A DNA stretch of 64,000 nt from Undaria pinnatifida. Its lineage: Eukaryota > Sar > Phaeophyceae > Laminariales > Alariaceae. Shown one piece after another: positions 9,701 through 61,292 of this stretch. The stretch is from positions 2,264,001 through 2,328,000 of the forward strand of contig JABAKD010000011.1 of assembly GCA_012845835.1 (NCBI GenBank), read 5' to 3'. A model generated the notes under the pieces. That model made no database searches. It worked only from the letters and a program-made list of their open reading frames with translations, and was not told where the DNA came from. Each line of letters opens with the position of its first letter. Within the stretch, counting starts at the first letter, position 1. Made by a program: the position numbers and the translations under genes.

Positions 9701-12700
9701 ATTAACAGGGATGGCGTGTTTTCGATCCTGGTTCGCGAACGATTCGCAGATCCATGTACGAGGCTCTCGAAAAAACTGTTAATCTTAAAGGTTCTAACAA
9801 CAGCCCGTATATAGAAACGCCTCCATTTACACCTTGTAAACCCATTTCTATCCTATTCTCACAATAAGGGGATGGTAGCTATCCACCCCCTACCGACAAT
9901 ACTACCGCAGGTATTGGCGGTAGCGGTTCTTGGGTGTGGTTCTCGCGATTGCTCATTTTGCGGTACCACCTGTAGGTGCGAGCTCAAACTTGCGGCAATA
10001 CGCATCCCTGGTTGCACCCGTTTTGTTGGGAACAAAACGACTGGAAAAAGTGTCGAATAAAGTTTTCGATTCTAAAAGGTCAGTTGCGGTTGTGGCTGTG
10101 GGTTATGGTTGTGGGTTGCGGGCTTCGGTTTTGGTATTGGGTATTCGGTTGTGGGTGTTGTTGTGGTCGTCGTTCTCACATGAACACGAAATAATCGCCA
10201 TAACCTAGCCCATGGTCAAGGGACAGGCTCCAGTCACGCTGGAGTGGAAATAATACCCCAGGCAAAAAAAATACTACAACCACAACACGCGAAACAAACC
10301 AAACCGATAATACCCACAACTGAAGCAAGTCGTACATCAGACAAAGAAGGTTAATGCTATCAGCAGTTCACGTTCGGGTAGGCTTGCACCTGCTTTTGGC
10401 AGATCTCCTCACTTGCCATTGACGTCATTGAGATAGAATCAAAGTGCTTCCAAACAAACCACCCCATGGCCGACAGTAGCCAACAACGAATAACACCGCA
10501 CACGACAAATATTGATAGCATTCTAACGATATTGAGTAGAGGAGCCCGGTCAGTCACAAACGGTTGGACCACAAGCGCTACCCGCCAATTTTTTTTCATC
10601 ACCTTCCCAGCTCAACTCTTAGGAGGTGTTCTTTACCCTCAGTGATCTTCTGGACAAGCCGTGGGTATTCGTAGGTATCTTCCCTTCTCCCCGCCGGCAC
10701 GTGCCTTCCTTTTTATCGAGCGTAGCGTTCAGCATTCCCACTTTTCACCTGTTCAAGCTCGTCGATTTTTCATCCCCTACCGCCGCCAGGGTTAGAGCTA
10801 AAAGTCAAACTTATATCGTACCTGGTCAACGGGGTTCTTCTGCGACAGTCCGGCAGCCTCAGCCTCCTCGTGCCCCTCCAGAAGGGCGTGCACCACGTGT
10901 CTGTCCATCACAGGGGGGCGGGGTTAAACTTACTCAAAACTATAGATCTTCAGCCCACAATTATGTGGCCATACGACTACAGCCACGTACGTACGAAATG
11001 AAAATCCTTCCCCCTCGAGCCCCAACCATGACTCACCTCAACGCAGCATCAACGGGCGCCTCGAAGTCCCTGTTGGGCTTCGCGTTAGGGTCGGCCAGTT
11101 CCGCCGCCACCCCGGGGACGCCGGGCAAACCCACCCCCCTTAGCGCGAACGGCACGATGGCCTTGCGGTTTCCGACGAGCTTGGCGGCGGCGAGACGCCG
11201 TGCAAGGGCGTCGGGGCAAAAATCGGAACCTACCGGCTCGAGGCCCCCCTCGGGGGACAGAGGTAGATGCCAAGAACCTGTTCGGCGTTTGTAGTATTGT
11301 TGCAAAAGAGGCGTTATAAAAAGGGATTTTTAACGGGTGCTGACCCGACCCGCGAGTTAAATGGAACGGTTTCCAAAGTCTCGCGGGTCGAGTCGGGTCG
11401 GGTCAGAAGGTAGTTCGGACCCTCAGGGTAGGACCAGACGGGTTTCAAATATCATAGGTATGTTCGGGTCACCCTGTCCCGACCCGACCTGCGAGAGGTG
11501 ACCACCCCCGTGAACAGCCCTGTAAAAAAATATGCTACAAAAGTTGCCACTGAGGTCGACGTATGGTGGATGCATCGTCCTCCTCGCCGTCTATCTCGTC
11601 ATCCCCCTGCCCCCCCTTCCCCCGACCCGGACCCTTGCGAGCGTATTGTGGAAAACCTTAACGTTACCACCGCTGTCGCTGCCATGGTTGGCGTTTTAAC
11701 ACCTCTAATAGAACTACCGTGCCAACGTCTTAGGAGAACGATTGCTTGGAAGACGCCTGGTACAATAGAGGTAGCACTTCTTCAGCCATTTTTTTTTGCC
11801 GAATAAAGGGGCTCCTTAACCCATCTTAACCCAAAATCCGTCGGAATTCCCTTCAATTATTGCCTTGCAAGGTAAATATACATATCTATATATATTGGGT
11901 GTATTTGTATACCTAGGCCATGGGGTTTGTTCATCGGATGACATTTTTCAGTTTACTCAAAAGCCAGTTTTGGGGTAAGGAATAAGAGGTCCTCAAGCCA
12001 CCACCCTCGGAAGGCAAAAACAGAGCCAGTGCACCTCCACCGTAGTAGGTATTTTGACACCGGTGTCGTTTTTCTTTTTGCGGTTCTGACAGGGATAACG
12101 CACCGTCGTTGCGGTCTATCTCCCCCCGCCCCCGCCCCCGCCCCCCCCCCCCCCCCCCTCCCCCGTCACCGGACACACACGCGATCCCTGTGACCACATA
12201 CGGCAGTACGGGCCTCCTAGTAAGAATATTTCAAAATAATAGAATTAGGATTGTTTTTGCCAGACACTTTTAACAAACTTGGCGTCGGACACGGTTGGTG
12301 CTCAAAATATTTCGCAGCGGTAAGAAACGGCGGAATAAGAAACATGCACCACAGGCATAAAATTCGAGAAAGCAAACATAAGACACTCAAGATAACACTT
12401 ACACCCTGCTGTTGCGCCCTCTTCCTCTTACGGTGGCCCACCACAAACACTCCGCATGCCCTCAAAGGTGGCTTTTTCTCGTATCGAGAATTGTTTTTTG
12501 GGTGGTTTTTCTTTCTTGGACCATTTCTCGAAGAAAGGCGTTTTCAATTCGGCGTAATATTTAAAATAGTAGACGGTCGATAACACGGCACTTCTGGTGT
12601 TTTTGGTTGATATACATGGGCCCCACACGAGCTAGACTTGACCGTTCCAGAACTGTCATCATCATTGCACGAGACAAACGACTTAGAAACAGTGTGGGAC

Positions 12701-13677
12701 AATTTTCGCAGATGATCAAAAAGGGATACAGGGGACACAGACTAGTGCGGGATACTTTTCTGTAAATCTAAAAGGTGTGTTGACGCAACGCACAACGCAC
12801 CGTCCTTGCCGTCTATCTCGTCCTTGTAAGGCACACCCTCCGCCTCTACGCGGCAGCCCCCTATCTGCGGGGGGAGGTCGTGGCAGTGTGTGTAGTAGTC
12901 GGACTTCGCCCCTCGGTAAACCTCGCGCGTGTCCATCGCATCGAACCACCTGGGGAGGGAACGAGGGCACCAATGGTCACGCTTTCAAGCGCGACGAGAC
13001 ACAAGAGGCGCCTGTCCAGGTCTGCACACACAAATCACACCAGATAAAATATCAAAACATGTTTCGATCATATATAATAGGGGTTTTTACGTTGTATTTT
13101 TTTTTCTAGTTTTTAGGTTTTGCAAATCACGAGAAGGCGTCGACTCAACCCAACCCTACCCCCAACAGGATAAGGCTCCCGGACATAAAGCGGGTAAGGG
13201 TTCATCTTAATCAGCGCCGAAAAAACGAGGCTTATCACGGTGTCTGGTAATCGAGACGGGGCGGGACGGAACTGTTTTGGCTTGTTTGCGGGAAAAAAAA
13301 TGAACACGGGACGGGACGGGACGGTAGAATGACGACCAAACAGGTTGTCGAGACGGGGCGGGACGGGACGGTGGGTGTACAATTTCTCAACGGGACGGGA
13401 CGGTAAATTTTAACTGGGTAGATTTTCACGGCGGGACGGGACGGTAAAATTCAACGGAATTTTTTTCTACAACGGGACGGGACAGTAAACATATTTTCTC
13501 GCGACGGGACGGGACGGTAAATGCAATTTTTCACGACGGGACGGGACGGTAATTTTTCTTCATGACGGGGCGGTCAATACAATTTTTCACGGCGGGACGG
13601 GACGGACGTACCATGGGACCGCCTTTTTGCCTGTCCCGAACGTGAGTCGTATACTATACAACGTACGTAGTAGTAGC

Positions 13678-13720
<43 letters not shown>

Positions 13721-16700
13721 CGGCATTGGATCATTGGATCATTGGATCAAGACAGTTGTTGTTCCAGAGGAACAAACGCAAAATAACCCTCGTCCGAATC
13801 GTACGTATGCATATAAAAATTCATCTTGAAATTGGTATTCCCATGATAAATCACACCGACAAGGCGACATCACACCAAATTACGCTAGGAACTCGTATTA
13901 TATACATACCTACATCATACTCGTATAGTACAGAACAAATAATATCATCATGCCTCTTCTACAGAAATAACCTCGACAGTCGTAGCGTTTTAGGCAGCGA
14001 CGGATGAGGCAGCCTCCGCGTCGAAGTTGGCCTTTAACGTCGCTACATCCTGGAGAACTTCCGCTAGCCCGGGGATCAAGTGCGAGTTGAGCTAAAAAAA
14101 CAGCATCTATATTCTCGATTTTGTCAGGCCCGAGGGAGGTGCGCCGTTGGCTAACAACTGCCGAAAGAGCAGATTAGTTTTCCTTTCTGCTTGGCAACTG
14201 GTGGTGGTGTCGATCTCTAGGTACACAGCCGAGCCAACAGTCCGACATGTGGCCAGCGAGCGGCCACGTCTCCATCTTTCCCGTTTTAACGTCTACTCCA
14301 TCCATCGCCTGTACCTTCCACGCGTTGAGTACATCGAACACAGGCGAATTCGACGCAACGGGCGTGTTCATGTATTTTTCATGTTTTCATATTTTCGTCT
14401 TTTCGTACTTCGTAAATTCGTAAATTCTATAACTTCAATTTAATGTGCATAACGAGTCTGCTGTGAACAATATAAACAAAGTGAATTTCCAATGTGAAAA
14501 AACAAAATTTTGCATAATGATCGTAAATTCTTGGTGGGAATGGACGGAAAGAAGAGACAACGGGCAGGGGTGAACCTTGGACGGAAGGGGGCAAGTTCTG
14601 TCGGCTGGACTGGACGGTGAAACACAACGGTGCAGGTTAGGATACCTGGACGGGACGGGACGGTACATGACAATATCTCGACGGGACGGGACGGTAATTC
14701 CCAATGGGAGTGGGAGTGAGTTTTTTTACGGGACGGGAAGATAAAGTCCAACGGGGCAGATTTTGATAACGGGACGGGACGGGACGGCAAGTGACAACGG
14801 TTGGATATTTGTCGACGGAACGGGATGGGACGACGGGATCAGTTTGACGACGGTTTTACCGCCCCGTCCCGTCCCGACGTTACGGTCGTTCCCGTCCCGT
14901 CCCGTCAAAATACCGTGATAAGCCTTGGGAAAAACACCATTCGTGATAAACCTTAATCAACGCAAAAAATTACCCTTCGAGACAAATCCTAACAAACGCA
15001 AAAAATCACCATTCGTAAAAACAAAATCATGACTACTGAAGTGACAAAAACATCACGATTCTTGACACCTGCCAATCTGCGTCATGTCACGTTTTTTACA
15101 AACAAAAATTGAAGGTTTTCAAAACTTTTTTTTGTACGATAACGTGTCGTAACTAATACCACGATTCGCGAAACTGTCACTTTTGCTTGTTACGCGGTAT
15201 ACGACTCGTGACAGTTTTGTTGGTTTGCTATGCCTAAATAATACCAATGATAAAAATAGCCCTGAAGGCCGTCCTGGAAAAGCCACGGGCGGCACAAATA
15301 ATCCTACGCACAAATTCAATACTTGCACACATAGGAGACAGACGGACAGACAGACCGAGTACAGCATATGCAGACAGACGCACAGGGGACACACACAGAC
15401 GCAGACAGACAGACGGTCACGCAGACACAGACGTATCCACTTTGACAGGCACACAACAGGCAGACACCGACACATGCACGTAGACAAGCACACATGTGCA
15501 CACAGACACGAATTCACGCAGATACATACAGGCACAGACACGGACAAAAAAACACAGACACATTAGTAGACACGACCCCCCCAAGGCTGGGATGAGAAGC
15601 TGCTACAGTAGCAATCCGAAGTTCAACTTTAAAGGAAGCAAGAGGCCGGTGTTCAGCAGGCAACACACTGAGAAACACGGACACAAAACAATCATGACAC
15701 ACAAGACACAGGCACACATGCAAACCATGAACATACGGTACCGGTCCCTCTATAGTGCCGGTATGTGCACTATAGAGGGAAATACTAGAACTGTAGCGGC
15801 AACCGGCACTATTCCGCATACTGCCACTACTGGTTTTCCCGTATTCACCAAGCAATTTCACAGGCACTTAGAATGGACAACCGGCACTACTCAATCAGCA
15901 CTATAGAGGGGTCACTATTCTACACAGACGTGCTCCGGCCGCAAGTTCGGCATAAACCATATACCAGCAAACGCGGTCAACAAAAAACAACTGTAACAGC
16001 AGTAGGGCCCCTACCCCCCAATAATCGTATTCAGAACATCACCTACGTACTTGGGGGCAAAACACTTGGAGTTAGCGTGTAAAGCTTTTTACAGTTCTAA
16101 ACGGGATTGTCTACAAAACCCACTTACCTGTCAATGTCCACAAAATACTTGGAAATAGCGTGGAATATTTTAGTCAGTTCTATGAAAAGGCTTTCTTGCC
16201 TTGAAACGAAAAAAAAAGTTCTCGGTCGCTTCGCTTCCTCGGTCTTGCCTCATTAAAAAGAACATCTGACATAACCCACGCACCTGTCAATGTTCGGCCA
16301 TCTAGGGTTTCCCCTTACACGGAGGCCTTTGTAGTACGGGAGAGATGCGCTCATCCGCTCTAGGAAAGGCGTATACATGAGGTCAACGTACGACAGCTCT
16401 TTGCCTTCGGAGCACAAATTGCGGGGGCGATTGAATAGAGGAGGGGGGAGGGGTTAGAGCTGGGGCTCAGGGGGGCGGGGTGAGCTGGACACGAAGCATC
16501 GACAAAACAAAAGCCTTCGAAGTGCTGACAAATACCCTCGTACAGCGACTCGACCAAAATGCATAAGAGTACCGGGCGGGCAAAAATTCATCTGCCGGTT
16601 TGTTGGTCTGATTCGCCGACGCTGGCATTCCAGCCGCCTAATTGTTTTTGGTAAAAAACGCTAAAGCACAAGCACGCTGCGGAGCCGTGCCGCTGCCCCT

Positions 16701-22700: not shown

Positions 22701-24814
22701 GAAACAGGGGAGGGCGGGGGATAAGGAGGAGAAGGAAGAGGAGGGAGGGGGAGGAGAGGGCGGCGGGGCGAGGGGAGGAGGGGTCGGGGTAAGGAGGGGA
22801 GAAGGAGGGGAGGGGGGGGGAAAGGGGGGGGGCGGGTGATTCATGCATAGCCGTAGTCTTGAGACCATAAACCCCCTCATTCCTGCAACGCCGGGACGGA
22901 GCAGAGCACGTCGGCTTCTCAACGACCAGGCAGACATCGCATGCACCAAGCGCGAGGGGGGAGTGGGGGGTAGGAAGAGGGGGGGGGGGGTAGGAAGAGG
23001 GGGGGGGGGGGGGGGGGGAGAAGGAGGGGGGGGTATACTCGTTCCATGCATAGCCGTAGTCGTATGACCATAGACCCTCGCATCCCTATTACGCTGGGAC
23101 GGAGCACGTCGGGTTTTCACGGACTAGGCAGACATCGCGTGCACCAAGTGCGAAGCGCCGTGAGGTGCTCGGCGAGTCGCATGAAGGGTGAGCCGCATCC
23201 TACTAAGAACCGCTTGTGAAGCGGGCATCCGGCGAGTCGCATGAAGGGTGGGCTGCATCCAGCTAAGAACCGCTTGGGAAGCGGAAATCCGCACCTTGTG
23301 CCTACTTTCTTGCATATGGATGACAGCTTCGAATGAATTGACTTGTTTGCTGATGTGGCCATTTCTACAGGCAGCAAACAAGGACACTATGTAACTGCAT
23401 CGTGGGTGCCTTGCCACGTGCACACTGTTTTCTACTCACCTTCTCTACGCGGTAGGGTATCCGCTTCTCTTCCAGTTGAAGCCATACTTTCTCGCAGTAC
23501 GGGCACCACGCCGCGTGGTCTCGGTACAGCGTTACACGAGGCTCTTGTTCCGTACAGAAGAAAAGGACGGGAAAAAGGGGGTAGGGACGCGCGGATACGG
23601 AGGGGGACGGATGGTCAAGGGGGCGGGGTTCAGGGGGGGTGGGAGCGCTGGTGGGAAGGGGCGGGAGGCCAGGGACGGGGGGTCGAGGTGGCGGGCGGAG
23701 GGGGGGGGGAAAGGGGGGTGGGGGAAGTCAATTTTTTCTTGCCTTAGCCATTTGAACATAGACCGCGCATCTCTTTCGAGACGGCGCACCGTCCCAATGG
23801 AGACACCTGCACCTTTGGGCGATCATTGCAGTTCTTCCACTTATTACATAAAACTTTTTGCTCATCTTGTTTCGTTCCTGTTTGGCCGTATGTGGTGGGG
23901 GAGGCGAGACGGGGGAGACGGGATGCAAGAGGGGGGGGGGGGGGGGGGGGGGGCAGCAACAACTCGTTTGTCCAACAAATTCTACCCGTGTCGTAGTACG
24001 CACCACTTTCATAAAACCTACTAATAACGGAACGGGGGGACGGGGGAGGGGGGCGTTTTGGGATATACGCGCTACAAAAAAATCACGTTTGCCTCATAGT
24101 CGCGCGGGCAGCTACTAAACACCAGGTGTAAAATACAAACAGTAGTAGCGGGGGGCTCTCAATAGTGCCGGTTGAATAGTGCCACTGCTCTCTATAGTGC
24201 CGGTTGAATAGTGTCACTGCTCTTTATAATGCCGGCGGGATCGCTTGGCATGACTGGAACTCTCCAGAGCAACTATTTTTGTAGTAACAGGTAACCCTAT
24301 CCCCGCTAGTGGTGCCGGTGCCGGGAACAGTGGTGGTACATTGGGCTGGCACATACCGGCACTATTGGGAGCCCCCCACTGCAACTACTAAATATCAGGT
24401 GCACTATTCATAAATTAAGCTACCAACTCGTTTGGGCTGGTCGGCGTAACTTAACGGGCTACATGCGCGGTGGCTAAAAGGCTGAGTGGTAGTCTCGTTT
24501 AGTTTTTACAAGGGCGTGGTCCCCCTTGTCAGATCGCAACACAACCCGGGGATCAAGCCAACCACATCGCGAAGGGGAAAATTGTACCAGGTAACAGACT
24601 ACAGACTATGTGCATTAGCAGCAGCAGCAGCAGCAACAACAACAACTGCAGCCGCGACAGTAGCGCTGGCCGCAGTGGCAATACCTGTTCCTTCGGGGGC
24701 GTCGAACAACCGCAGCGTGGCTAGGGAGCTGGTGGGCCCGTACCCGCGGTCCCTGAGGGCGACGGCCTCCTTCTCCTCCGGCGTCTGACGCTCTTCGAGG
24801 AGCGTCTCCAGCCT
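3727..24814 (-). CDS. Glutathione S-transferase-like protein, CPYC type, at least ten exons
   Basis: Exons in transcript order: 24814-24685, 23543-23440, 22672-22553, 21775-21663, 20654-20551, 16404-16284, 12949-12801, 11277-11037, 10900-10822, 3816-3727. All junctions keep frame (phases 1,0,0,2,1,2,1,2,0), giving about 416 residues. Exon 2 carries [19 protein letters not shown], a thioredoxin-fold segment with a CPYC thiol centre near residues 57-60. Exon 3 holds PSGAVPV (cis-Pro loop) and an ES glutathione-binding pair. Exons 5-6 give PYFLG then [17 protein letters not shown], typical of the GST C-terminal domain. Exon 7 has WFDAMD and [11 protein letters not shown]. Exons 8-10 form a C-terminal extension ending with [11 protein letters not shown]. 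Cysteine-type GSTs usually act in glutathione-dependent thiol transfer or reduction; substrate and location are unknown. Four acceptors are AAG rather than CAG or TAG. The start is not found; a GC-rich patch at 25100-25200 may hold it. The last exon either ends at a TAG (3729-3727) or splices on from 3742. The longest intron (about 7 kb) contains a Ty1/copia fossil and SINEs. Confidence 0.85.
4160..4435. repeat. Two-copy tandem repeat, period about 133 bp
   Basis: The segment with CTTGGCCTTTGTCGCGC followed by ATCTAGAT occurs near 4221 and again near 4354, with GCCACCGTC and CACTACT words aligned in both copies. It lies in the last intron of the GST-like gene. The copies are clearly diverged. 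Confidence 0.65.
5170..5760 (+). repeat. Dispersed repeat (family D), interrupted by a SINE fragment
   Basis: The left part (about 5170-5360, with GGGTTCTATAGTTTCCGCGC) and the right part (about 5580-5720, with CAGCTTGCAGAGACGAGTTTCG) are contiguous in a second copy at 38640-38900. A third, partial copy lies on the minus strand at about 30058-30180. Here the two halves are separated by about 215 bases whose core matches the SINE copies at 6636 and 44546, so a SINE piece appears to have inserted into an older repeat. Confidence 0.65.
5363..5535 (+). mobile_element. SINE fragment (family S1, 3' part)
   Basis: This matches the 3' two-thirds of the elements at 6636-6945 and 44546-44872, including GCGATAAAAATGAAGGCAAG and CCTGTGACCACGGCTTGTCC. 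The tRNA-like head is missing, as expected for a 5'-truncated SINE insertion. It sits inside a family D repeat. Confidence 0.65.
5820..5995 (-). repeat. Two short copies of a CCAAGGCCAACCC repeat
   Basis: Two adjacent related blocks carry the words CCAAGG-C-AACCCA, ACCCACGAAAAA and a GGTTTCAA-like word read on the opposite strand. The same block recurs at about 9118-9190 and 19440-19560 in the opposite orientation and at about 19070-19120 in this orientation. These may be termini of a small DNA element. Confidence 0.5.
6001..6626 (+). mobile_element. LTR-like repeat, copy 1
   Basis: This segment begins TGTTGA and ends CCAACA. It is repeated in the same orientation at 8552-9099, and the copies differ at roughly one base in ten by eye, plus length differences. 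Size, ends and the nearby Ty1/copia fragment suggest an old long terminal repeat. It carries an internal tandem duplication at 6321-6480. No target-site duplication was made out. The element is a broken fossil. Confidence 0.5.
6321..6480 (+). repeat. 80-bp tandem duplication
   Basis: An 80-base block starting CGTTCTATTCTTCCTCGTCAG and ending GGTGTTTCTTTT is present twice back to back with almost no differences. The related repeat at 8552-9099 has only one copy, so the duplication is younger than the split between the two repeats. Confidence 0.85.
6636..6945 (+). mobile_element. tRNA-derived SINE, family S1, copy 1
   Basis: The head contains a pol III A-box-like TGGCGTATCAGG and, about 45 bases on, a B-box-like GAGTTCGGATCC. 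The body ends in an A-rich tail. A second full-length copy at 44546-44872 matches across the whole length (head, ATTCGAGGGGATTTTTTCTTG-like block, GACTTGCGGAAA, CCTGTGACCACGGCTTGTC). A truncated copy lies at 5363. This one starts directly after the LTR-like repeat ending at 6626. Confidence 0.75.
7290..7660 (+). repeat. About five tandem copies of an 80-110 bp CACCAGCTGCAGCA unit
   Basis: CACCAGCTGCAGCA is followed each time by GACGGCACA-GTA-T-CGTCAG and, in most units, by CGGGTCGAGAA-GACTCGA. Units begin near 7309, 7390, 7479, 7567 and 7619. Both the CAGCTG core and the TCGAGAAAGGACTCGA part are near-palindromic. No coding function is apparent. Confidence 0.7.
7838..8545. mobile_element. Ty1/copia pol fragment in inverted duplicate (fossil)
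   Basis: Two arms of roughly 330-360 bases (about 7838-8195 and 8220-8545) are reverse complements around a short spacer near 8196-8219. Each arm carries a piece recognisable as the Ty1/copia pol region between integrase and reverse transcriptase, one on each strand. The element is broken, with no continuous pol, gag or protease seen. LTR-like repeats lie on both sides (6001-6626, 8552-9099). The whole sits inside the last GST intron. Confidence 0.6.
8552..9099 (+). mobile_element. LTR-like repeat, copy 2
   Basis: This is the same repeat as 6001-6626, beginning TGTTGA and ending near GTGCCAATA. It has a short TA microsatellite near 8984. It abuts the inverted copia fragment. The likely reading is the surviving terminal repeat of an old LTR element that was later rearranged. 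Confidence 0.5.
9100..10200. other. Intron DNA with repeat pieces, no gene seen
   Basis: This is intronic to the GST-like gene. It has a short copy of the CCAAGGCCAACCC repeat at 9118-9190, a fragment near 9345-9400 related to GGGACTAAACACTTGG repeats at 16040, 49900 and 61540, and a GTTGTGG-rich run at 10080-10170. Nothing else is recognised. Confidence 0.5.
10150..10268 (+). repeat. Dispersed repeat (family C), copy 1
   Basis: The block has GTCGTTCTCACAT, then GGACAGGCTCCAGTCACGC, TGGAGTGG and TACCCCAGG. The CTCCAGTCAC-CTGGAG part can form a hairpin. Copies recur at about 34590-34690, 43030-43130 and 62870-62960 in the same orientation. Confidence 0.7.
11338..11505. repeat. GGGTC-word region, copy 1
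   Basis: The words GGGTCGGGTC and the inverse GACCCGACCC recur densely in both orientations, with a shared CGGGTCACCCTG block near 11463. Similar regions lie at 17035-17290 and 62640-62815. It falls in the GST intron between exons 7 and 8. Closely spaced G-runs give G-quadruplex potential. Confidence 0.7.
11586..12122 (-). repeat. Two partial copies of the exon 7 / donor junction inside the following intron
   Basis: At 12097-12122 there is a 26-base match (two mismatches) to 12794-12819, the last exon bases plus the GTGCGTT donor of GST exon 7. At 11586-11600 a further 15-base exact match to the same exon end (12808-12822) is seen. Both are in the same orientation as the exon. The stretch between them includes a family B repeat copy (11865-12062). 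Confidence 0.6.
11865..12062 (+). repeat. Dispersed repeat (family B), copy 1
   Basis: Shared words, in order, are ATACCTAGGCCATG, TTCATCGG, a CAGTTT-CTC block, GTAGAGCTCCTCAAG or a variant, and CACC-TGTAG. Related copies lie at 18590-18720, 19195-19395, 21060-21215 and 57540-57850. They differ strongly, so the family is old. No coding frame is conserved. Confidence 0.55.
13226..14932. mobile_element. 1.7-kb element with GGCTTATCACGGT ends and GGGACGG-word interior
   Basis: The left end reads GAGGCTTATCACGGTG at about 13226, and the right end reads the inverse, ACCGTGATAAGCCT, at about 14917-14930. Inside, 13250-13620 and 14600-14910 are dense in GGGACGGGACGG words, mostly on the plus strand and turning to CCGTCCC just before the right end. 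The middle holds an (AGT)n microsatellite (13667-13720) and unrecognised DNA. No transposase is seen, so it would be a non-autonomous DNA element. It lies in the GST intron between exons 6 and 7. Confidence 0.55.
13667..13720 (+). repeat. (AGT)n microsatellite
   Basis: About seventeen near-perfect trinucleotide units, followed by a triplicated GGATCATT word. Confidence 0.9.
15330..15565 (+). repeat. ACAG/ACAC-rich low-complexity tract
   Basis: CAGACAGACGCACA-type words dominate for about 230 bases. Frames across it are open on both strands only because of this composition. It is intronic to the GST-like gene. Confidence 0.7.
15744..15912 (-). mobile_element. CTATAGTGCCGGT MITE
   Basis: The left end is GTCCCTCTATAGTGCCGGT, and the right end carries the inverse CACTATAGAGGGGTCAC. 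The internal words CTATAG, GCGGCAACCGGCACTA and TTTCACAGGCAC match the family. The orientation is opposite to the copies at 2079 and 60613. No coding frame. Confidence 0.75.
16405..17034. other. Intron DNA, no gene seen
   Basis: Nothing recognised apart from short G-rich runs (16440-16490). Confidence 0.4.
17035..17290. repeat. GGGTC-word region, copy 2
   Basis: GGGTCGGGTC words in both orientations, with the shared GGGTCACCCTGACC block near 17230, match the regions at 11338 and 62640. A TACCAGGTA motif lies near 17155. Confidence 0.7.
17616..18120 (+). repeat. 32-bp minisatellite, about 15 copies
   Basis: The unit contains GCGGTATTACCGGTACGTCC followed by GCTCTTCTTTTT and repeats every 32 bases with a few substitutions (for example GGTGCG for GGTACG) and two shortened units near the right end. 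The core GGTATTACCGGTAC is near-palindromic. Because 32 is not a multiple of three, each plus-strand frame reads the same 32-residue peptide repeat in a different phase, and all three are open. I take this as a composition effect, not a gene. It is within the GST intron between exons 5 and 6. Confidence 0.9.
18180..18540. repeat. GTCGGC/CCGACT-word region
   Basis: The words GTCGGC, CCGACTTG and AGTCGG recur irregularly on both strands. It lies in the same GST intron. No end motif was identified. Confidence 0.45.
18560..20040. other. Intron DNA with family B and CCAAGGCCAACCC repeat pieces
   Basis: Holds family B copies (18590-18720, 19195-19395) and CCAAGG-type repeats (19070-19120, 19440-19560). 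The rest is AT-rich and unrecognised. Confidence 0.5.
21349..21425 (+). mobile_element. Truncated CTATAGTGCCGGT MITE
   Basis: Begins GGTCCCTCTCTAGTGCCGGC with CACTATAGAGGGGAA and CTATAGCGGCAACC following, then stops matching. Only one terminus is present. Confidence 0.6.
21815..22275 (+). repeat. Long purine-only-like tract (GGGA/GGAA)
   Basis: Nearly all plus-strand bases over about 460 bp are purines, starting with uninterrupted GGGA units (21825-21915). Related shorter tracts lie at 22690-22840, 22960-23035, 23560-23730 and 23920-23955. Such tracts can form triplex or G-quadruplex DNA. Pro/Ser-rich minus-strand frames here are composition artefacts. All lie in GST introns. Confidence 0.9.
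22318..22375 (+). repeat. CCGCA-unit tandem repeat
   Basis: About ten CACCG/CCGCA pentamers. On the gene strand this reads GTGCG, the same bases as the donor of GST exon 3 (22552 downward), and it lies in the intron that follows that exon. Confidence 0.75.
22421..22573 (-). repeat. Repeated copies of the GST exon 3 / donor junction
   Basis: The 32 bases spanning the exon 3 end and donor (22542-22573) recur at 22421-22452 with four mismatches. A shorter third copy lies around 22470-22496. All keep the orientation of the exon. Confidence 0.6.
22843..23342 (-). repeat. Dispersed repeat (family E), copy 2
   Basis: Reverse-oriented match to 3107-3345. It contains two internal direct copies of a block with CATGCATAGCCGTAGTC (near 22846 and 23045) and two copies of GAGTCGCATGAAGGGTG (near 23171 and 23231), so it is itself duplicated. 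It lies in the GST intron between exons 2 and 3. Confidence 0.7.
23730..23885 (-). repeat. Dispersed repeat (family J), copy 1
   Basis: Matches 49370-49530 over GCATC-CTTTCGAGACGG, the GCACCGT block, CACCT and a CTTGT-TTTC-TTCCTGTTT block. Weak open frames on both strands look related between the copies (NGAPSRKG-like), but no family is recognised. Confidence 0.55.
24149..24381 (+). mobile_element. CTATAGTGCCGGT MITE, GGGGGCTC subfamily
   Basis: The left end GGGGGCTCTCAATAGTGCCGG and right end CCGGCACTATTGGGAGCCCCC are inverted. Internal units GAATAGTG-CACTGCTCT occur twice. A second subfamily member is at 39551-39735. Confidence 0.75.
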
Positions 24815-26914: not shown

Positions 26915-28125
26915 CCCGAAAATGGCGATTTTTCCAAGGGCTTGCATGGGCCCCATGCAAGAGGGATGGGACGGTTTCGCTCGCGCAGGCGGGAATTTTT
27001 TGGGTCCCATATTTGTGTGGGATGGGATCTCATGGTCATTTGTTGCCGCTCCCACTTTAAAAAATGGGAATGGGACCACTTGCGTTTTACTTGGGATGGG
27101 AATGGGACGGGAAGTTGGAATGTTTCGCCATGATGGGACCAAATGGGAATCCACAAAAATCGAGATGGGATGGGATGGGACTGTTGTGTCATAGGGGGGA
27201 TGGCGGGACGCCGCCGCGAAATGTGGGATTTAACATGGGATCCAGTATGGGACAACACCGGGAAAGACGATCTGGAAACCTGCGCGGGAGTAGGAAGCCC
27301 TTCCCCAGCATACATACTCTACGTGGACCAAAAGTGGGGCTTGCAAACAGACCAACAGAAGCACGTTCACGGTCGTCTTATTGTCTTACTAATTGCTTAA
27401 TTCGTAGCCCAAAACGAAAACAAAGATATATCAACAACCAACCCCGATCGAAAAGCAAACATTAATATTTGCAGGGGTGTGTTAACTTGTACAATGTGTT
27501 AACTCCAAGGATCAATGAACATGCCCCACCAACCCTAAACAAAGTAGACGAGAAAAATTAAAAAAAAAATGGGTACATGAATGCATCTAATGGAAAAATG
27601 AAAAATGAACACGGACAAAAGTCTCCTGTCTAGTCAGCACTCTCATCTTCCTACGAAACTGTAACAGGGGAAACATGCCAAGATTTTTATTTTTTTTTTA
27701 CGTTCAGATTCAACCCGCGTGCGTGGGTGTTGGCCCAGTGGCCCGGGCGCTGCGGGACATTCTATTTGGAATAAAATGGGGAACTGGCATATGGGAAGTT
27801 GCGCTCACAGTGCACACTGGGGCGGGAGTGGCTACTTTTACAGTGGGATTGGGACGGGAGTAGCTGTGCCGATGGTGAGATGGGAAGGAGGTGGGATGGG
27901 AAGGAGGTGGGATGGGAAGGAGGTGGGATGGGAGCGGTGCTATATCGGTTATGTGGGAGTAAGTGGGGCAGGAATTTTAGATGGGATGGGACTTGGTGGG
28001 ATGGGAAGCGCGTATCCCACTGTGGGATTCCCATGCCATTACCATCCCATCCCATATTAGATGGGATTCCCATCCCATTTGTTCCCATGCAAGCCCTTGG
28101 ATTTTTCAGGCTTGCATTTTCGGGT
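26915..28125. mobile_element. 1.2-kb element with CCAAGGGCTTGCATGGG ends and GGGATGG-word interior
   Basis: The left end carries CGAAAATGG and CCAAGGGCTTGCATGG (26915-26950), and the right end is the inverse (about 28084-28125, CCATGCAAGCCCTTGG then CATTTTCG). The interior is dense in GGGATGGGA words at 26965-27250 and 27880-28010, switching to CCCATCCC at 28040-28080. The middle (27270-27760) is unrecognised. No transposase. G-runs give G-quadruplex potential. Confidence 0.6.
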
Positions 28126-31019: not shown

Positions 31020-31740
31020 GCCTTACCGCCTAGCCCATGTTACCGGGTGGGAGCAGTACGATCTGCATGATCTAGCAAATTTTCCAGGGTTGGATCTGTA
31101 CTTTTTGCATACAGACCCTGCACGACATATCATAACGGCAGATGCAGTATTTACTGTAGATGATCTATATGATCTGTATGATCTGTACGGTCTAGATCGT
31201 GATCTGTCCGAGGTGTGAAAATTTCCCACGCATCCGACAGATCGCGATCTAGATAGTGTAAATCCAAAACCAATCGTTATGGTAGGCTGTGCACGATCTG
31301 TGAAGCACAGACCCAACCCAGGAAACTCGTGCTAGAAAACTCACATCATCCAGCTCTCACCTAGCAACATGGACTAGTTCATGCAGATCATATATACCAG
31401 GGATCTGTCTTCCCTCAAAGCCACAGATCATCAATAGGGATGCGGTCTATCCGATGCGTCAAGCTTTCACGGCAAACTTACAAACGTCCGACAGATCATC
31501 AATTCCCACTTGATGATATAGATCTTGCAGGGAAGATCTGTATGGTCTAGCTCACGTCACCGGGTGGGAGCCGCACGATCTGCCCTGTCTATTAATAGTA
31601 CATGCTTCCTGGGTTGGATCTCATCTGTACTCGTTATACACAGATCCCGCAGAACATATCATAACGGCAGCTATAGGATCTATTGTAAGTGATCTACTAC
31701 TGTAGATCGTTATCTGTCCGAGGTGTGTGAACTTTAAATG
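31020..31740. repeat. GATCTG-word region with a direct duplication
   Basis: GATCTGT/AGATCA words recur densely. Two blocks (about 31020-31215 and 31555-31725) match in order: CACCGGGTGGGAG-like, GATCTGC, GGGTTGGATCT, CATATCATAACGGCAG, and a final ATCTGTCCGAGGTGTG. The ends read inward CACACCTCGGACAGAT, close to the CACACCCTGGACAATAG end of the next region. Confidence 0.6.
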
Positions 31741-31754: not shown

Positions 31755-32225
31755 TCTAGTACAGCACACCCTGGACAATAGGTTCAGGTCAACAGGCAAT
31801 CGATAGGATCCTATTCCAATAGGAAACCTATTGTTGCCCGCGATACGTATCGATGGGTACTTTTCGTAGCATATTGGGGCCGACAACGGGTATCGAATGG
31901 CATCTTCAATGATCTACTGCTTGGCCAATAGCCTCTTGTACCTATTTATCTGAACATACTGATACAACAAGCAGGTATCGATAAACATTTTCAGGACGGT
32001 ATTGTTTGGGCGACAGGATATTGACGCTGAGAGACGGAACCTATGGGTTTGCCCGATAGGTATTGAAATACTTTTCACCAAACCTATTGATTCGGAAAAT
32101 TGGTATCGATAGACCTTTCACAATTCTATTGTATTGGATGATGGGTATTGACAGACCTTTCACTACCCTATTTTTTTGGATGATAGGCATCGGTACGTAG
32201 ACCTTTCGCCGTTTTATTGTTTCAG
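31755..32225. repeat. CCTATTG/ATCGATA-word region, part 1
   Basis: CAATAGG, CCTATTG and GTATCGAT words recur on both strands from a left end GTACAGCACACCCTGGACAATAG. It continues at 32490-32920. A closely related region is at 38930-39405. Confidence 0.6.
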
Positions 32226-32396
32226 TGTTGGAGAGCAAAGGCGCTCGAATACAGCCCGTCTAGGCACAATTAACTCTAGTTCGCCATTCATCATCAACGC
32301 CGCACGCCCCCCCAGCCCAGCGGAGAATCCCCGAAAACGGCGCTGTCTATTCGCGTTGTGCCCTAAAAAGCGCAATGTGGATGGTCTCAACAACAA

Positions 32397-32466
32397 GGTG
32401 GCGATTACTACTTATGTGTGTTCGATGCGAAGCTCAAGCCTGCAGTGCTTTACAGCGACCTGTTTG
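32397..32466 (+). CDS. Very weak exon candidate
   Basis: Between a possible CAACAAG acceptor and a GTGAGC donor, 22 codons read GDYYLCVFDAKLKPAVLYSD plus LF. The peptide looks protein-like, but another plus frame is also open and no partner exon was found. Confidence 0.15.
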
Positions 32467-32489
32467 TGAGCCGTCGAGTTCCTTCTTAT

Positions 32490-32920
32490 ACCGTGGATAA
32501 TACCCTATCGAAAAGGCTATTGGGCCAACAATAGGTCCGCAGCTATGAGGATCGATACCTATCGCGGGGCACAATAGCTCGGTTTCGGGGTCTATCGATA
32601 GGTATTGTGAGCAACAATAGGGTTAAGGCAGTGGCCACAATAGCCTATTGTGCGGCCGATATGCTTGCGAAGGTGTATATCGATAGATATCTTGGGCACC
32701 AACATAATTGAAAATGACTCCCAATAGGCTATCGTTCGAACAATACCTTTTTATCGCCACCAGGCAATACCTATTGGTTAAAGCGATAGGTGTGCGATGA
32801 TATCGATCGATACCTATTGCTCAATGTAATAGGTTCGCAAGGGTATCGATCAATGCCTATTGCCCAATTTAGTAGGTTCTCAAGGGTATCGATCTATACC
32901 TACTGACAATTTATTAGACG
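32490..32920. repeat. CCTATTG/ATCGATA-word region, part 2
   Basis: The same words as 31755-32225, spaced about every 15-40 bases in both orientations (for example GATCGATACCTATTG). No gene. Confidence 0.6.
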
Positions 32921-32970
32921 TACAAGGGCTCCGCATGGGCGCCGGCATTCGCCGGCGCCCATGCTTCGGG
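32915..32970. repeat. GC-rich palindromic hairpin after GTACAAGGGCTCCGC
   Basis: ATGGGCGCCGGC and its exact reverse complement are separated by four bases (about 32935-32962). It belongs with the family K loci at 25305, 37855 and 54880. Confidence 0.65.
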
Positions 32971-32999
32971 TAGGGCAAGGCAGCACTTCGACAACTTAA

Positions 33000-33650
33000 G
33001 GTGTAGCTATCCGATTTGGCATGCATTGAACTTTTAAGTAATGCCAAGAGTTTAATACGAACATGGGATTCTGAAAGTCATGCATTGACAAAAGAAAAAA
33101 CGTAATATTATACAACAAAGTATTATTGAGAACCTGCGTCGCCTCTAGGCGAAACAAAAGAGGCCTTGGCATTAATGAAGAGACTGCACTGCTGTCCCCG
33201 TGGCAATGGAGGTTCGAAGTCGACAGGATGCAAAGTCGGTTTGCATCAAACGTCGACATGAGGACATGTCAGCCGGCGAGGTTTTGGAAGAAGATTGCTT
33301 TGTTTGTTACGTGAAGGCTGTCGCATTGATTGGTCTGCGTGGTCGCGGACGAGAAGGAAAACGTAGAAGAGGAGGGCGATCTCTCGTTGAGGCGGCGTTG
33401 TCTAAGATTGGTGCGGGGGTGGCTTTGCTCGTACGGGAGGTTGGCGTAGCGCTTCTTCTCTGTTTTTTCTCGGGAAGGCGGGATATGTGAGTCTGCTGCC
33501 TTTTCTTCGTGGGGGCTTTCACGTTGTCGAAATTGGACGCGTCCCCTCAATGCATAATATCCGGAATGTCTCTACCATGACGACTGCTGATAGTGCCGTG
33601 CGTATTTCCTAGACACTGACATATTATTTACTGGTAGTAATAATAATATA
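33000..33650. other. No gene assigned
   Basis: Open frames exist on both strands at 33126-33550, but none resembles a known family and the strand cannot be chosen. Confidence 0.4.
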
Positions 33651-33654
33651 CCTT

Positions 33655-33990
33655 TGCAACATTTTTTTTTCTTCATCCCATTTATTATCCCCGCACCACT
33701 CTCGCGCTCCCTCCCAGTATTAACTCAGATCCGGGGTCAATAGCGGGCCCTCCTCCTCCCTCCCCACTTCGGCACGTGCTTTCATTTTTACCGCGAGGAG
33801 AATCCAGCATTTTCTTCCCTCGTCGACTCGCGTCGAACCAACCCACGCTGCTAGGCGCTCTCAGCAGTTGATCCCTGTTTTTTTTTTTTTGCATTTTTGC
33901 AAATAAAGTCAAATCTCATCGTGGTGGGTGTCGAACTCAAGGGCAACCAAACGTTAGTAGTATTCGAGGGCAAAACCACTATTATTAATA
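33655..33990 (-). mobile_element. tRNA-derived SINE, family S2, copy 1
   Basis: Read on the minus strand: a tRNA-like head with A-box region (here carrying an extra TTATTAATA) and B-box-like GAGTTCGACACCC, a body with GCGAG-like and CCCGGATCTGAGTTAATACTGG blocks, and an A-rich tail. Copies at 46020-46405 and, truncated, 40105-40280 match the body closely. Confidence 0.7.
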
Positions 33991-34164
33991 GACCACCGGG
34001 GCGGCCGGCTGACAAATGATTGATAAAAAACAGGATCTTTGCATAGAGATTACATTCCCTCCCCCATATTGTATGATATTACGATGGTTGACGCGATATG
34101 TATAGAATAAAGCGCCAAATACCTAAGTATCAGCGTACGCGGAGTTTTAGATATCATGAATAAC

Positions 34165-34400
34165 GAACGACCGCGACGGCAGAGCACGGCAAAGCATAGC
34201 GCGTCGCTCTGCTGAGCTAGCGGTGCGCTGCTGAGCTGAGCCGCAGGGCATCGCAGGGCATCGCAGGGCACTGCACGGTGCTTCGTTGCTGTAAGCTATA
34301 GCGCTGCGATAGGGTGCTGGGCGGTGTCAAGCTGATGAGCCAAGCCCAGATCTCAGCCGCTGAAGCTTCGTCAAGTACAAAACAAATGGTGCGAATCAAA
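34165..34400. repeat. GCTG/GGGCA-word low-complexity region
   Basis: Words such as GAGCACGGCAAAGCA, CTGCTGAGCT and three GGGCATCGCA units. Similar regions occur at 25640-25720 and, inverted, at 54240-54650. Confidence 0.55.
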
Positions 34401-34589
34401 GAAAAACTAAAGCTGGACCGTTCCGCAACTAATGCACAGGCGGCAAATTAGCGGCAGTAGGAAATTCAACTTACTAGACAAAAAGGAAGAAAAAATCGCG
34501 AAAAAGTTCAAAATCGTGTTGGCAGAAAAACCAAGTTTGCAGGAAGCAGCTGAAAGGTCAAGATAACAGGCAATGTTTCAGTTGTTGTT

Positions 34590-34690: not shown

Positions 34691-34699
34691 CAAAACCAA

Positions 34700-35358: not shown

Positions 35359-35359
35359 T

Positions 35360-36890: not shown

Positions 36891-37784
36891 TTACGTCTGC
36901 GGATATCTCCCGCGTCTGACCGCCTTTCCGCGCGGTTTCTTCGCTGAGGCGTGCCCCCGCCTCGCCTGCAACCACCGGCTCAGCTGATCCGCCCGCTCGG
37001 CGCCGTAGCGCGCGCGCGAGGCCTCGACGTTGAGATCTACGACGAGATCTCCGAAAAATCGTGCCCTGTGAGACGTTTGGTGCGTAGTCTGCACACAGGG
37101 CTAATGTCTTCGCGTTATTTCTTCGGTACGTGTTCTCTGACCTCCGACACACGGGGGGGGGTCGATTACCTGGCCGGCGTCGCCATTGTAAAGGCCACTA
37201 AGCGAGGTTTGTGCTAGGATCTGGGGAAGAAACGTTCGTAATCCCCGAGAACACATGCCACCCAGGCGTAGTGGAGAACTGCGAAGTCTACAGCAGCACG
37301 TATACATGTACATGATGTACAGCAGTAGCTGAAGCTATGATGAGCCTACAGCATCACGAAGCTACAAATGGTATATGCACAGCAGCATCACGAAGCTACA
37401 AATGGTATATGCACAGCAGAATCACGAAGCTACAAATGGTATATGCACAGCAGCAGCTAGGCGTCGTGGAGAACTGCGAACTCTCAATATTTTTGAACCC
37501 CCGGTAGTCTACAGCAGCACGTATAAATCAGCAGCACGTACATGTACATGATGTACAGCAGTAGCTGAAGCTATGATGAGCCTGCAGCATAACGAAGCTA
37601 CAAATGGTATATGCACAGCGGCAGCTGTGGCCGCGCCTTTCTGCGTAGCAACGCAGAGCGTCACCCAGCTGGGGTGAACCGCCATGCTCTCCCATAATTT
37701 CCAGGCTGCCTTCTCGCATTGTTCCGCCGCACACGGGAAATCGGGAAAAAATTGTCGGCATTTTCCCTTTCCAGTATCTCCCAT
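36891..37784 (-). CDS. Small three-exon gene, unrecognised
   Basis: Exons in transcript order are 37784-37665, 37220-37170 and 37088-36891. The first starts with an ATG (MGDTGKGKCRQFFPDF) and ends ESMAVHPSW before a GTGACG donor. The second lies between CTTCCCCAG and GTAATC and reads ILAQTSLSGLYNGDAGQ. The third follows GTGTGCAG, includes FFGDLVVDLNVEASRARYGA, turns strongly basic (KKPRGKAVRRG) and ends in TAA. All junctions are phase 0, giving 122 residues. No family is recognised. The first intron contains tandem repeats (37300-37640). The weaker points are the first-exon start and its donor; the middle exon's splice signals are strong. Confidence 0.45.
37275..37640. repeat. 34-bp tandem units inside a larger direct repeat
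   Basis: The 34-base unit ATCACGAAGCTACAAATGG plus TATATGCACAGCAG occurs three times (from about 37352, 37386, 37420). A larger block with ACATGTACATGATGTACAGC occurs at about 37298 and 37540. It lies in the first intron of the 36891-37784 gene. Confidence 0.8.
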
Positions 37785-38130
37785 ATATGAATTAACAAAC
37801 TTCGTCTAACTCTTGGCATTACTTCTTACCCTCTTAATATTTACTATCCTGCGCTGCGACCGGCGGCCGTCCAGGCCGCCGGCGTAGCCCCTTGTACTAT
37901 GATATGATAAGTTTTTAATAAGTTAAGTTTTATAAAAACTTGAAAGTTTAAAAATATATTTTAATTATCCCGACATTCATGCTATATACCAAACCTAACA
38001 AATCTGCTAGAATAATAAACAATGCCAGGCAGGTGATATAAACTGATGCATTCCTTCTACAACTGTCAGATTTGCCCCCTTGAAGGATTTTTAGTTTCCG
38101 CGCACATATTGAGTTGTCCCCCCCCCCCCC
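37785..38130. other. AT-rich stretch, no gene
   Basis: Contains an inverted family K hairpin (CCGGCGGCC-GGCCGCCGG at about 37858-37882 followed by CCCCTTGTAC) and otherwise AT-rich DNA. Confidence 0.5.
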
Positions 38131-38132
38131 CG

Positions 38133-38410
38133 ATCCCTCTTGTTCAAACGCCCCACCTAAAATCAAATTCTGCCAGAGTAATAAACACTACCAGGCAGCT
38201 GATACCACCTCATTATCTTTCTAGCCATCCATGCCGTAGCTCCAAACTCACCCCCCCCCCCCCCCCCCTTTATTTTTCCCTGCTCCTTCTTGTTCAAACA
38301 CCTCACCTAAAGTCAAAATATGCCAGAGTAATAAACACTACCAGGCAGTTGATATCACCTCATTATATTTCTAGCCATCCATGCCGTAGCTCCAATTCAT
38401 CCCCCCCCCA
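38133..38410 (+). repeat. Two tandem copies of an about 150-bp unit
   Basis: CTTGTTCAAAC-CC-CACCTAAA, GCCAGAGTAATAAACACTACC and AGCCATCCATGCCGTAGCTCC are each present twice, separated by a C-run. A partial third copy lies at 37985-38045. Confidence 0.8.
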
Positions 38411-38639
38411 AAAAAAAAAACGCTCCCTCCTTCCCCACCACCCGAACCATCGCCTAGACCTAGCACCACGTGTGCAGAAAGTACCTACATCTATGCGACC
38501 TAAAGCTGTTGGAAATTCCCTTCTCTCCCCCCCTTCTCCCCCTTCCCCCCCTTCCCCGACCCCCCCCCCCCAACCCTGCGAACACTCTGCTCGCTCCGCA
38601 CTGGTTGTACGACTTACAGCATACACTTGATAAACTGAT

Positions 38640-38900
38640 GCATTCCCTTCCACCGCTGTCAGATTTTGTCTCCTCAAAAACGGGTTTTATAGTTTCCGCG
38701 CACAGACTAACTAACATCACCCTGTTGGCCCTGGTACAAGGTACACTGTAGTTCGAAGGGGAGTCGCCGACCTATATCCTTATGAGGACACACACACAGT
38801 AATACGCGCGATCGGAGTATCACATACAGCTTGCAAATATGAGTTTCGGCAAAATCTTCGATCTCACAGCTGGAGTGTATTTTTAGTTTTATAATATTAT
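38640..38900 (+). repeat. Dispersed repeat (family D), uninterrupted copy
   Basis: Contains GGGTTTTATAGTTTCCGCGC, GGGAGTCGCCGACCTA and CAGCTTGCAAATATGAGTTTCG in one continuous block. It serves as the empty-site reference for the interrupted copy at 5170-5760. Confidence 0.65.
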
Positions 38901-38929
38901 CGGAGGGCAAAAATAATGAGAATATTATT

Positions 38930-39405
38930 CAATTAATCGATATTCGATACACCAACTTGTGGACACACCAGCAGGCGTATCCAATACGTGGTAGACAACT
39001 GTGTAGGGCTATATACCTACTACTCATAGGAATAGATATCTATCGACCATTTCACATAAATATTGGTCAAACAATAGATGTCGATCGACACTTTCACGAA
39101 CCTATTGGTCACAGTAATAGGTATCGATCGACAGTGTGACATAACTATTGTAAGAACAATAGCCTATCGTGCCGATTTATCAGAACCTATTGGTCGAAGA
39201 AATAGGTATCGAAGATTCACACACCTATCTTAAGAACAATAGCCTGTTGTACCAAATTATCTCGACCTATTGGTCCAAGCAATGAGTATCGATCGACGAA
39301 TTCGCATACCTATCGAACGTGTTAATATATATGGATATGCAATACCCCAACCTATTGACACTCAATAGGCATATTCAATAGGCTATTGTCCGGGGTGTGG
39401 TACAG
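38930..39405. repeat. CCTATTG/ATCGATA-word region, second locus
   Basis: CCTATTGGTC, AATAGGTATCGATCGAC and related words recur densely. The right end (CTATTGTCCGGGGTGTGGTAC, 39379-39400) is the near-inverse of the left end of the 31755 region. Confidence 0.6.
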
Positions 39406-39550: not shown

Positions 39551-39735
39551 GGGGGCTCCCAATAATGCCGGTTGAATAGTGCCACTGCTCTATAGTGTCG
39601 GTGAAATCGCTTGGTACGACTGGAACTCCCTGTAGTAACTACCAGGTATATCGTAACCCTATTCCCAACAGTGCCGGTGCCCTGAATAGTGCGGTGCAAT
39701 GGGCTGGCACATGCCGGCACTATTTGGAGCCCCCA
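39551..39735 (+). mobile_element. CTATAGTGCCGGT MITE, GGGGGCTC subfamily
   Basis: The ends GGGGGCTCCCAATAATGCCGG and CCGGCACTATTTGGAGCCCCC are inverted. The interior matches 24149-24381 except that it carries a TACCAGGTAT insertion near 39640 absent from that copy. Confidence 0.75.
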
Positions 39736-60612: not shown

Positions 60613-60908
60613 AGAGGGCTCTCTATAGTGCCGGTTGAGTAGTGCCGATTGCCCGCCATAGTGCCTGTGGAATCGCCCACAGTAGAGTTCCCTCTATAGT
60701 GCCGGTTGCGTAGTGCCGATTGCCCGCCATAGTGCCTGTGGAATTGCCCACAGTAGAGATCCCTCCATAGTGCCGGTTGCCCGCTATAGGGCCTGTGCAA
60801 TCGCCTGCCACAGATGGGAACATCTAGTAGGGGCTTTACGCGGAGTAGTCCCGGTTGCCGCTACAGTGCCGACATGGCTGACACATTCCGGCACTATAAA
60901 GGGACCAC
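60613..60908 (+). mobile_element. Composite CTATAGTGCCGGT MITE with triplicated left end
   Basis: The left portion TCTATAGTGCCGGTTG, GCCCGCCATAGTGCCTGTGG and CACAGTAGAG is present nearly three times in tandem (from about 60613, 60688, 60765) before a single right portion ending CCGGCACTATAAAGGGACCAC. Confidence 0.8.
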
Positions 60909-60922
60909 TACTGTAATGGTTC

Positions 60923-61292
60923 CAAGGGTGTGTTCGGTAGGGTATATATGTACTCGGAAAGCCGGGTAAACTCTGGGAATACCCGGGTGCATAACCAAGT
61001 ATGACTGCAACAAACAGGGGAGGGTACCCGGGTACCCAAGGGTGTATACCCGACTAAAACCCACCCTCGAAGTTGTGCTTTCTGTTTTTTCTTCGTTTTG
61101 TTTTCCGCGGCTTAAGGAGAGATAGAAAAAGCGCGTTCCTGACGAAAATGTCAAGATTTCGAGAGCGTGCCTCGTAGGGCATATCATCTGGACATTCCTG
61201 AGTATCTGCCCGGCTATGACCAACGTAGACAGGGTTGGTACCCGAGTGCCCGGGTACCCTAGAATGTGTACCTTTTACTAAACGCAGCCTTG
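60923..61292. mobile_element. 370-bp element with imperfect CAAGGGTGTGTTCGGTA ends and CCGGGTACC words
   Basis: The left end CAAGGGTGTGTTCGGTAGGGTA and the right end (reverse complement CAAGGCTGCGTTTAGTAAAAGGTA) are imperfect inverted repeats. The interior carries ACCCGGGTGC, GGGTACCCGGGTACCC and TGCCCGGGTACCCT words near both ends. No coding frame, so probably a non-autonomous DNA element. Confidence 0.55.

Follow-up and report, generated by a model that had tools for sequence, protein, structure and literature searches.

The Ac transposase is described as binding cooperatively to a subterminal hexamer, AAACGG, repeated within the outer ~200 bp of its element, and Ds2 as keeping ~200-bp ends around filler DNA (PMC3260210). 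For Hermes, the BED domain is reported to recognise subterminal repeats that are precisely placed with respect to the terminal inverted repeat (TIR), with asymmetric ends and a first right-end motif that lies inside the TIR (PMC10368747). The proteins of CGGBP-type hAT transposons (hAT-19) usually prefer words containing CGG or CGC, their specificities being diverse, and for each of the four hAT-encoded proteins that yielded a motif, this motif finds high-scoring matches within the subterminal parts of the element encoding the protein, as presented in PMC8097297. Here we analyse a repeat-rich stretch of 64,000 nucleotides from Undaria pinnatifida (assembly GCA_012845835.1, contig JABAKD010000011.1, here C13:2264001-2328000; hereafter the window), in which repeat families labelled A (GGGACGG), B (GGGATGG), C (GGGTACCC), D (CCTATTG) and E (GATCTG) had been predicted to share one design, inverted ends around an interior that reiterates a family-specific word. 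With a probability of roughly 0.87, A, B, D and E are non-autonomous cut-and-paste transposons of the hAT superfamily with three-part ends, and C may be another such family. The class is known and ordinary; the modular rule of the ends is the interesting part.

The families resemble Ac/Ds as described, and especially Ds2, in their 8-bp target-site duplications (TSDs), short TIRs, subterminal repeats and internal deletions or filler, movement in trans being an Ac/Ds feature. They differ in their words and TIRs, in their longer arrays (13-33 words per A copy) and in the presence of several families and words in one genome; furthermore, Ac/Ds movement is known, whereas the families described here are known from sequence alone. 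As in the published account of Hermes, subterminal repeats lie at set distances, the ends are asymmetric and a word lies in the TIR; unlike Hermes, whose motif is AAGT, the words are mostly of 6-7 bp, and the presence of a word in the TIR is examined across several families. The resemblance of GGGACGG to CGGBP-type words is only suggestive, the CGGBP domain not having been identified here. The original prediction that no named group has exactly this layout was too strong, given the subterminal repeats of Ac/Ds and Hermes and the Ds2 ends around filler. This set of families is not described in the titles of the literature found, and the word 'subterminal' is absent from the main text of a paper on brown-alga transposons (PMC12477816), both of which are weak evidence of absence.

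Families A and B: paired ends, word arrays and duplications

The genome searched was the source assembly of the window (511,146,479 bases, 68 contigs), and the loci fetched from it were the best-scoring search matches, not a random sample. Word enrichment was judged against 200 dinucleotide shuffles per region, and TSDs against cross-copy pairing of left and right 8-bp flanks. The predicted end and interior words are present where claimed, and the words exceed the shuffles in all five families: 29 GGGACGG in the A region (shuffle mean 0.69, maximum 4), 14 GGGATGG in the B region (0.71, 4), 7 overlapping, palindromic words in C (0.12, 2), 17 CCTATTG in the D region (1.10, 5) and 14 GATCTG in the E region (0.94, 4). 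The features of A and B in the window are as follows.

13226..14927, forward strand, 1702 bp: family A element, probably a non-autonomous hAT type, with paired ends, multi-copy in the genome
13226..13241, forward strand: A left TIR CGAGGCTTATCACGGT (common form CAAGGCTTATCACGGT)
14912..14927, reverse strand: A right TIR
13218..13225, unstranded: A left target-site flank CGAAAAAA, 6/8 matching the right flank GGAAAAAC at 14928-14935 (locus L024)
13263..13605, forward strand: A left subterminal array, every word forward
14652..14903, unstranded: A right subterminal array, with forward words and, within the last 64 bp, reverse words
26935..28099, forward strand, 1165 bp: family B element, without the interior present in longer hAT copies
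26927..26934, unstranded: B left 8-bp TSD GATTTTTC, repeated exactly at 28100-28107 (locus L052)
26963..27203, forward strand: B left subterminal array
27893..28076, unstranded: B right subterminal array, with a strand flip at about 28042

Many further genome copies share the ends of A and B. For family A, 26 loci were fetched and 15 had paired TIRs (L032 and L033 stand in for L025 and L027, whose places they cover). The B sample comprises 35 distinct loci, each twice-fetched locus being counted once (L065=L082, L054=L087, L055=L097, L056=L098, L057=L099, L062=L095, L066=L086, L067=L096, L073=L100, L074=L088, L076=L085, L077=L093/L094, L079=L101, L081=L092), and 27 of the 35 were paired by TIR mismatches alone; word positions and conservation were counted in 26 copies, with L079 excluded. 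Flanks that match at 7 or more of 8 positions were found in 10 of the 15 paired A copies as compared to 3.3% in cross-copy pairing, a count that may correspond to ~8 independent cases because L034 and L036, perhaps together with L037, may be a single duplicated insertion. Over all A copies, 95 of 120 flank positions match, compared with 22-38 at six shifted offsets. In family B the same level is reached by 23 of 27 paired copies, 18 of them exact, while the cross-copy value is 18/702 (2.6%); an earlier B pairing, partly picked on flank match, had given 36 paired rows, 30 of which had at least 7/8, with 4.0% cross-copy. The flanks thus bear out the predicted duplications, as they also do in D (see below), and the view that these are mobile, mostly non-autonomous DNA elements holds for A, B and D and, though the evidence is thinner, also for E.

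The shared design stands as far as ends and words are concerned, but not as regards the interior. In the 15 paired A copies the words are confined to the outer 400 bp on each side, with 0-2 in the middle, and the window copy has a ~1-kb middle without words between its arrays; the B middle is word-free in the window copy and in 25 of 26 paired copies, with a single word in the remaining one. The proposal that the elements are built almost wholly of word arrays is therefore wrong for A and B. The strand flip close to the right end, originally noticed in two families, is real in both and recurs at near-fixed distances in the genome copies. In A, reverse words lie mostly 31, 54, 59 and 64 bp from the right end (15 copies), and the nearest forward word lies at 94-111 bp in 11 of 15; the corresponding B distances are mostly 30, 53, 58 and 69 bp (26 copies), and 102-107 bp in 23 of 26. 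The terminal repeats differ (CAAGGCTTATCACGGT in A vs CAAGGGCTTGCATGGG in B), and A and B look like sister families that have kept the layout of words at the right end and differ in word and TIR. A second flip, of the A arrays relative to the interior, proved to be apparent only, being due to the strand in which the loci are stored.

The words could in principle be ordinary satellite or tandem expansions within old elements, with no binding role, and some spacers indeed form tandem units of 32-43 bp. We regard this as improbable: hardly any words lie beyond the ends of the elements (0-1 per copy in the flanks of 15 A copies and 0-2 in those of 26 B copies), so that the arrays do not run past the ends as a satellite, and they keep near-fixed distances from the right end. 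We infer instead that they are putative transposase-binding sites, each family following its own binding domain. At the left ends of A, word columns are more conserved than their neighbours (0.861 vs 0.752, p 2e-7), and at the right ends marginally so (p 0.039), a contrast that is soft, in A as in B, because MAFFT may favour word columns.

The link to hAT comes from longer B copies. Other B copies split the window-B query at 745-750 (window ~27676), which indicates that the window element is without the interior of the longer ones. Two of these, L082 (5125 bp) and L083 (5256 bp), have B terminal repeats, B arrays and exact 8-bp duplications. L082 matches PF05699, the C-terminal hAT dimerisation region (5.2e-07, 29.8 bits, cut-off 21.4), and the PF05699 match of L083 is sub-threshold (18.1 bits); the remaining eight open reading frames (ORFs) scanned gave no match, and a PDB sequence search with a B ORF returned one irrelevant match (E 0.39). 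The several open frames of the long B elements may be exons or the result of decay. With conserved subterminal ends that carry repeats and a middle without a transposase gene, A and B are non-autonomous hATs of the Ds2 type. The genome is rich in hAT: a PF05699 search yielded 371 candidates, and all 150 that were scored lay above the cut-off, none of them tied to A.

Families D and E and the CACACC group

Families D and E share a second type of outer end, which begins with CACACC. Their features in the window are as follows.

31765..39399, forward strand: family D element, a ~2.05-kb unit, probably hAT-like, enlarged by two insertions
31765..32918, forward strand: D left part with word array, matching all 40 scored candidates
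32919..36409, unstranded: insertion 1 inside D, absent at this place in 3/3 full-length copies, with CAAGGG at both junctions
36795..38893, unstranded: insertion 2 inside D, absent at this place in the same 3 copies
38894..39399, forward strand: D right part, with array and right end
31201..31217, reverse strand: family E end CACACCTCGGACAGATC, exact
31227..31727, unstranded: possible degenerate E unit, with a left-like end at 31227-31243 (3 mismatches) and a right end at 31711-31727 (1 mismatch)

Both CCTATTG ends are present as predicted, with the correction that the left (31765) and the right (39383-39399) belong to one element, whose window span of 7.6 kb is due to its two insertions. A palindrome, GCATGGGCGCCGGC..GCCGGCGCCCATGC, marks the left edge of insertion 1 (3.5 kb). 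A search with the D left part gave 421 candidates, 40 of which were scored, the window among them: 38 of the 40 match nearly the whole length of the 1154 bp, and identity is 86-93% in the 39 non-window candidates. The element starts sharply at the CACACC end in five aligned copies and is 2047-2079 bp long in the three copies traced to the right end; in one series, 10 left ends were followed and 3 of them led to a right end. Exact left-end 18-mers occur 67 times in the genome (control 0), and the ends are 17-bp TIRs. Duplications of at least 7/8 were found in 5 of 6 resolved non-window copies as compared to 0/30 cross-copy. The window copy has GTACAG on both sides, 6 bp only, which would fit an 8-mer minus two bases on the right. 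D words are present through much of the element, which makes D the family closest to the all-array idea. A candidate autonomous D element on contig C21, suggested by a hAT match at a distance of 2.5 kb from a D end, was rejected, the next 3 kb having neither D words nor a right end.

CAC..GTG termini together with arrays would also suit CACTA/EnSpm, a group that has subterminal motif arrays. In the accounts available, duplications are of 3 bp in EnSpm and of 2-5 bp in the wider group, unlike the 8-bp duplications in 5 of 6 resolved D copies, and on this duplication length we consider a CACTA/EnSpm origin of D and E very improbable.

Family E is represented in the window by ends, words and scraps, with no clean paired element, and the degenerate unit shares only short matches with the intact copy L134. 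Exact 18-mer E ends occur 282 times in the genome (control 0), and one intact copy (C13:785647-787533, 1887 bp) has exact 17-bp ends, 7/8 matching flanks, GATCTG words in both end regions and a strand flip in the last ~22 bp. Among the E ends whose places were listed, some are doubled at 63-144 bp (C1:4428833/4428970, C2:14429953/14430097, C13:3394386/3394449 and C22:2511147/2511212), which recalls the neighbouring E ends in the window. Three E ends stand in a row at an exact 982-bp period on C21 (11505676, 11506658 and 11507640), a tandem arrangement of the kind that the satellite explanation would expect.

A hAT match near a D end on contig C19 led to a 2.2-kb element, G (C19:8700535-8702752). 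Both of its ends start with the D/E outer half CACACCnnGGAC, its end arrays contain GAGCTA/TAGCTC 42 times, and it encloses the hAT dimerisation domain PF05699 (1.1e-13, 51.1 bits). G is probably a decayed element, and it gives the strongest support for a possible assignment of the CACACC group, that is D and E, to hAT. It also bears on the possibility that D and E belong to KDZ (Kyakuja-Dileera-Zisupton) and not to hAT. KDZ elements are described with 7-8-bp duplications and, in Kyakuja, CA..TG termini, which the CACACC..GGTGTG ends and 8-bp duplications of D fit, and they are reported to make up 1.8% of the genome of Ectocarpus, a brown alga. However, the hAT domain lies inside a sister element with the D/E outer end, and the fungal Kyakuja that have been described are without TIRs, in contrast to the 17-bp TIRs of D; a search with PF18758 (KDZ) gave no match, its controls being equally silent. 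KDZ membership is thus unlikely in our judgement, and hAT remains the preferred assignment for D and E.

Several observations weigh against this assignment of the four families. A good duplication is absent in 5 of 15 A copies and in 4 of 27 B copies; one of the latter, L079, has 8 TIR mismatches and was probably paired falsely. B word columns are no more conserved than their neighbours (p 0.76 left, 0.17 right), the B ends being more alike throughout than the A ends. Transposase-bearing relatives with the same ends, which the original prediction had suggested looking for, were obtained for B (L082) and, with the D/E type of end, as the one element G; the three longest paired A copies (2.3-3.3 kb) yielded none, their 10 scanned ORFs giving two sub-threshold hits only, both unrelated to transposases, and none turned up within D or E elements proper. 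The coding sequence of the B transposase is spread over several ORFs, of which the N-terminal ones match no Pfam domain, BED finger included. Finally, the link of D and E to hAT comes from a single 2.2-kb element, and the flanks of G match at only 6/8 and the stretch found in the genome search (50.5 bits) holds a TAG stop.

Candidate C and other repeats of the window

Further candidates in the window are listed here.

60923..61292, forward strand: candidate family C (GGGTACCC), with imperfect ends and unconfirmed membership
24152..24375, forward strand: F, similar to a miniature inverted-repeat transposable element (MITE), with GGGGCTCCCAATAGTGCCGG inverted ends, resembling 39552-39733
39552..39733, forward strand: F, second MITE-like copy

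The prediction for C stands in the enrichment of its words and fails in its ends. These have 4 mismatches in 15, the flanks are unmatched and the genome search gave no full-length copy, all of which speaks against counting C among the hAT families. A C-like element, C2, was found in locus L130 with the word CGGTACCG: from base 1956 onward (C21, about 7450136), the end CAAGGGTGTGTTCGGTACGG is followed by an array of CGGTACCG, so that the C outer end stands beside another word. Two copies of family F (CTATAGTGCCGGT), with inverted ends, can be aligned with each other in the window; between D and the second of these, at 39499-39523, a short telomere-like run of CCCTAACCCTAACCCTAACCCTA lies within the contig.

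Just before B, at 26040-26830, and again at 29120-29220, there are repeated tRNA-like units (GTGGTCTAGTGGATAGACTGTCC ... GGTTCGAATCCCGG) with similar GGAGACGGTGAGAAGCGCTGAG spacers between them. These look like a tRNA-derived short interspersed nuclear element (SINE) or a degenerate tRNA cluster, and neither ARAGORN nor Rfam reported them: across the window, ARAGORN in its bacterial setting found no tRNA, and Rfam no match. A 32-bp tandem repeat, TTACCGGTACGTCCGCTCTTCTTTTTGCGGTA, runs for 14.7 copies at 17640-18111, with no connection to the word arrays seen. At 7837-8546, an inverted repeat of ~240 bp, with arms 94% identical and a spacer of about 230 bp, is a possible further foldback or TIR element. 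Eight window ORFs compared with Pfam gave a RING finger in one and otherwise nothing, and the stretch has a eukaryotic appearance. Scans of IMG/VR with the B and D end patterns returned 20 and 3 contigs, respectively, which by our own estimate is about the number expected by chance; these contigs have no blastn similarity to the window, and GGGATGG occurs 0-4 times per locus.

Word and terminal repeat across families

It had been noticed that the D and E ends contain their interior word, and this extends to other families, with the exception of C. The first 12 bases of the end hardly vary among D, E and G, and directly inside them comes a stretch that contains all or part of the family word: AATAGG in D, AGATC in E and AGCTC at the left end of G, while at the right end of G GAGCT is found only ~20 bp in. 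The TIR inner half ends ACGGT in A and ATGGG in B, both being parts of their own arrays. When seven units (A, B, C, D, E, G and C2) were compared, with words counted in the outer 450 bp of A, B and G and in the whole bodies of the other units, the inner half held a mean of 2.14/8 of its own top 5-mers vs 0.14 of those of others, and 2 of 5040 label permutations were as good. In 6 of the 7 units the TIR inner half contains words of its own array, which argues further against a satellite origin of the words. The same comparison has points that count against the rule: it was noticed first, and the test used the material in which it had been seen; C and C2 are relatives, E is represented by one end and G was found through its end. 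Moreover, the inner end of C scores 0 with its own word and matches that of C2 instead.

On these data we propose, tentatively and at slightly less than even odds, that several hAT families evolve modularly, the outer TIR half staying constant and the inner half and array switching their word together, with A and B as a snapshot of such a switch. The step from A to B would then be a one-base change of the word (GGGACGG/GGGATGG), and D, E and G would be three words on the CACACC outer half. In the reading given at the outset, each end consists of an outer sequence common to sister families (CAAGG... or CACACCnnGGAC), a word-bearing inner TIR half, and a subterminal array of the family word that extends some 250-1150 bp inward. 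The catalytic core of the transposase would read the outer TIR half, and its DNA-binding domain would recognise the word, both within the inner half and along the array. The array would concentrate the transposase at both ends, and the asymmetry between left and right, with its flip near the right end, may help to pair the ends in a productive orientation. Copies without a transposase gene but with both ends would move in trans, and a new family would originate from a joint change of word and inner half that suits a DNA-binding domain which has diverged.

If the modular rule is true, this one genome would hold a natural series of transposase and binding-site pairs in which specificity has changed and layout has stayed fixed. 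It would thereby offer a direct test of the co-evolution between hAT transposases and their ends, and of how non-autonomous copies stay mobilisable. The word array, together with the shared outer end, also provides a handle to find and group hAT families that repeat annotation may have left unclassified.

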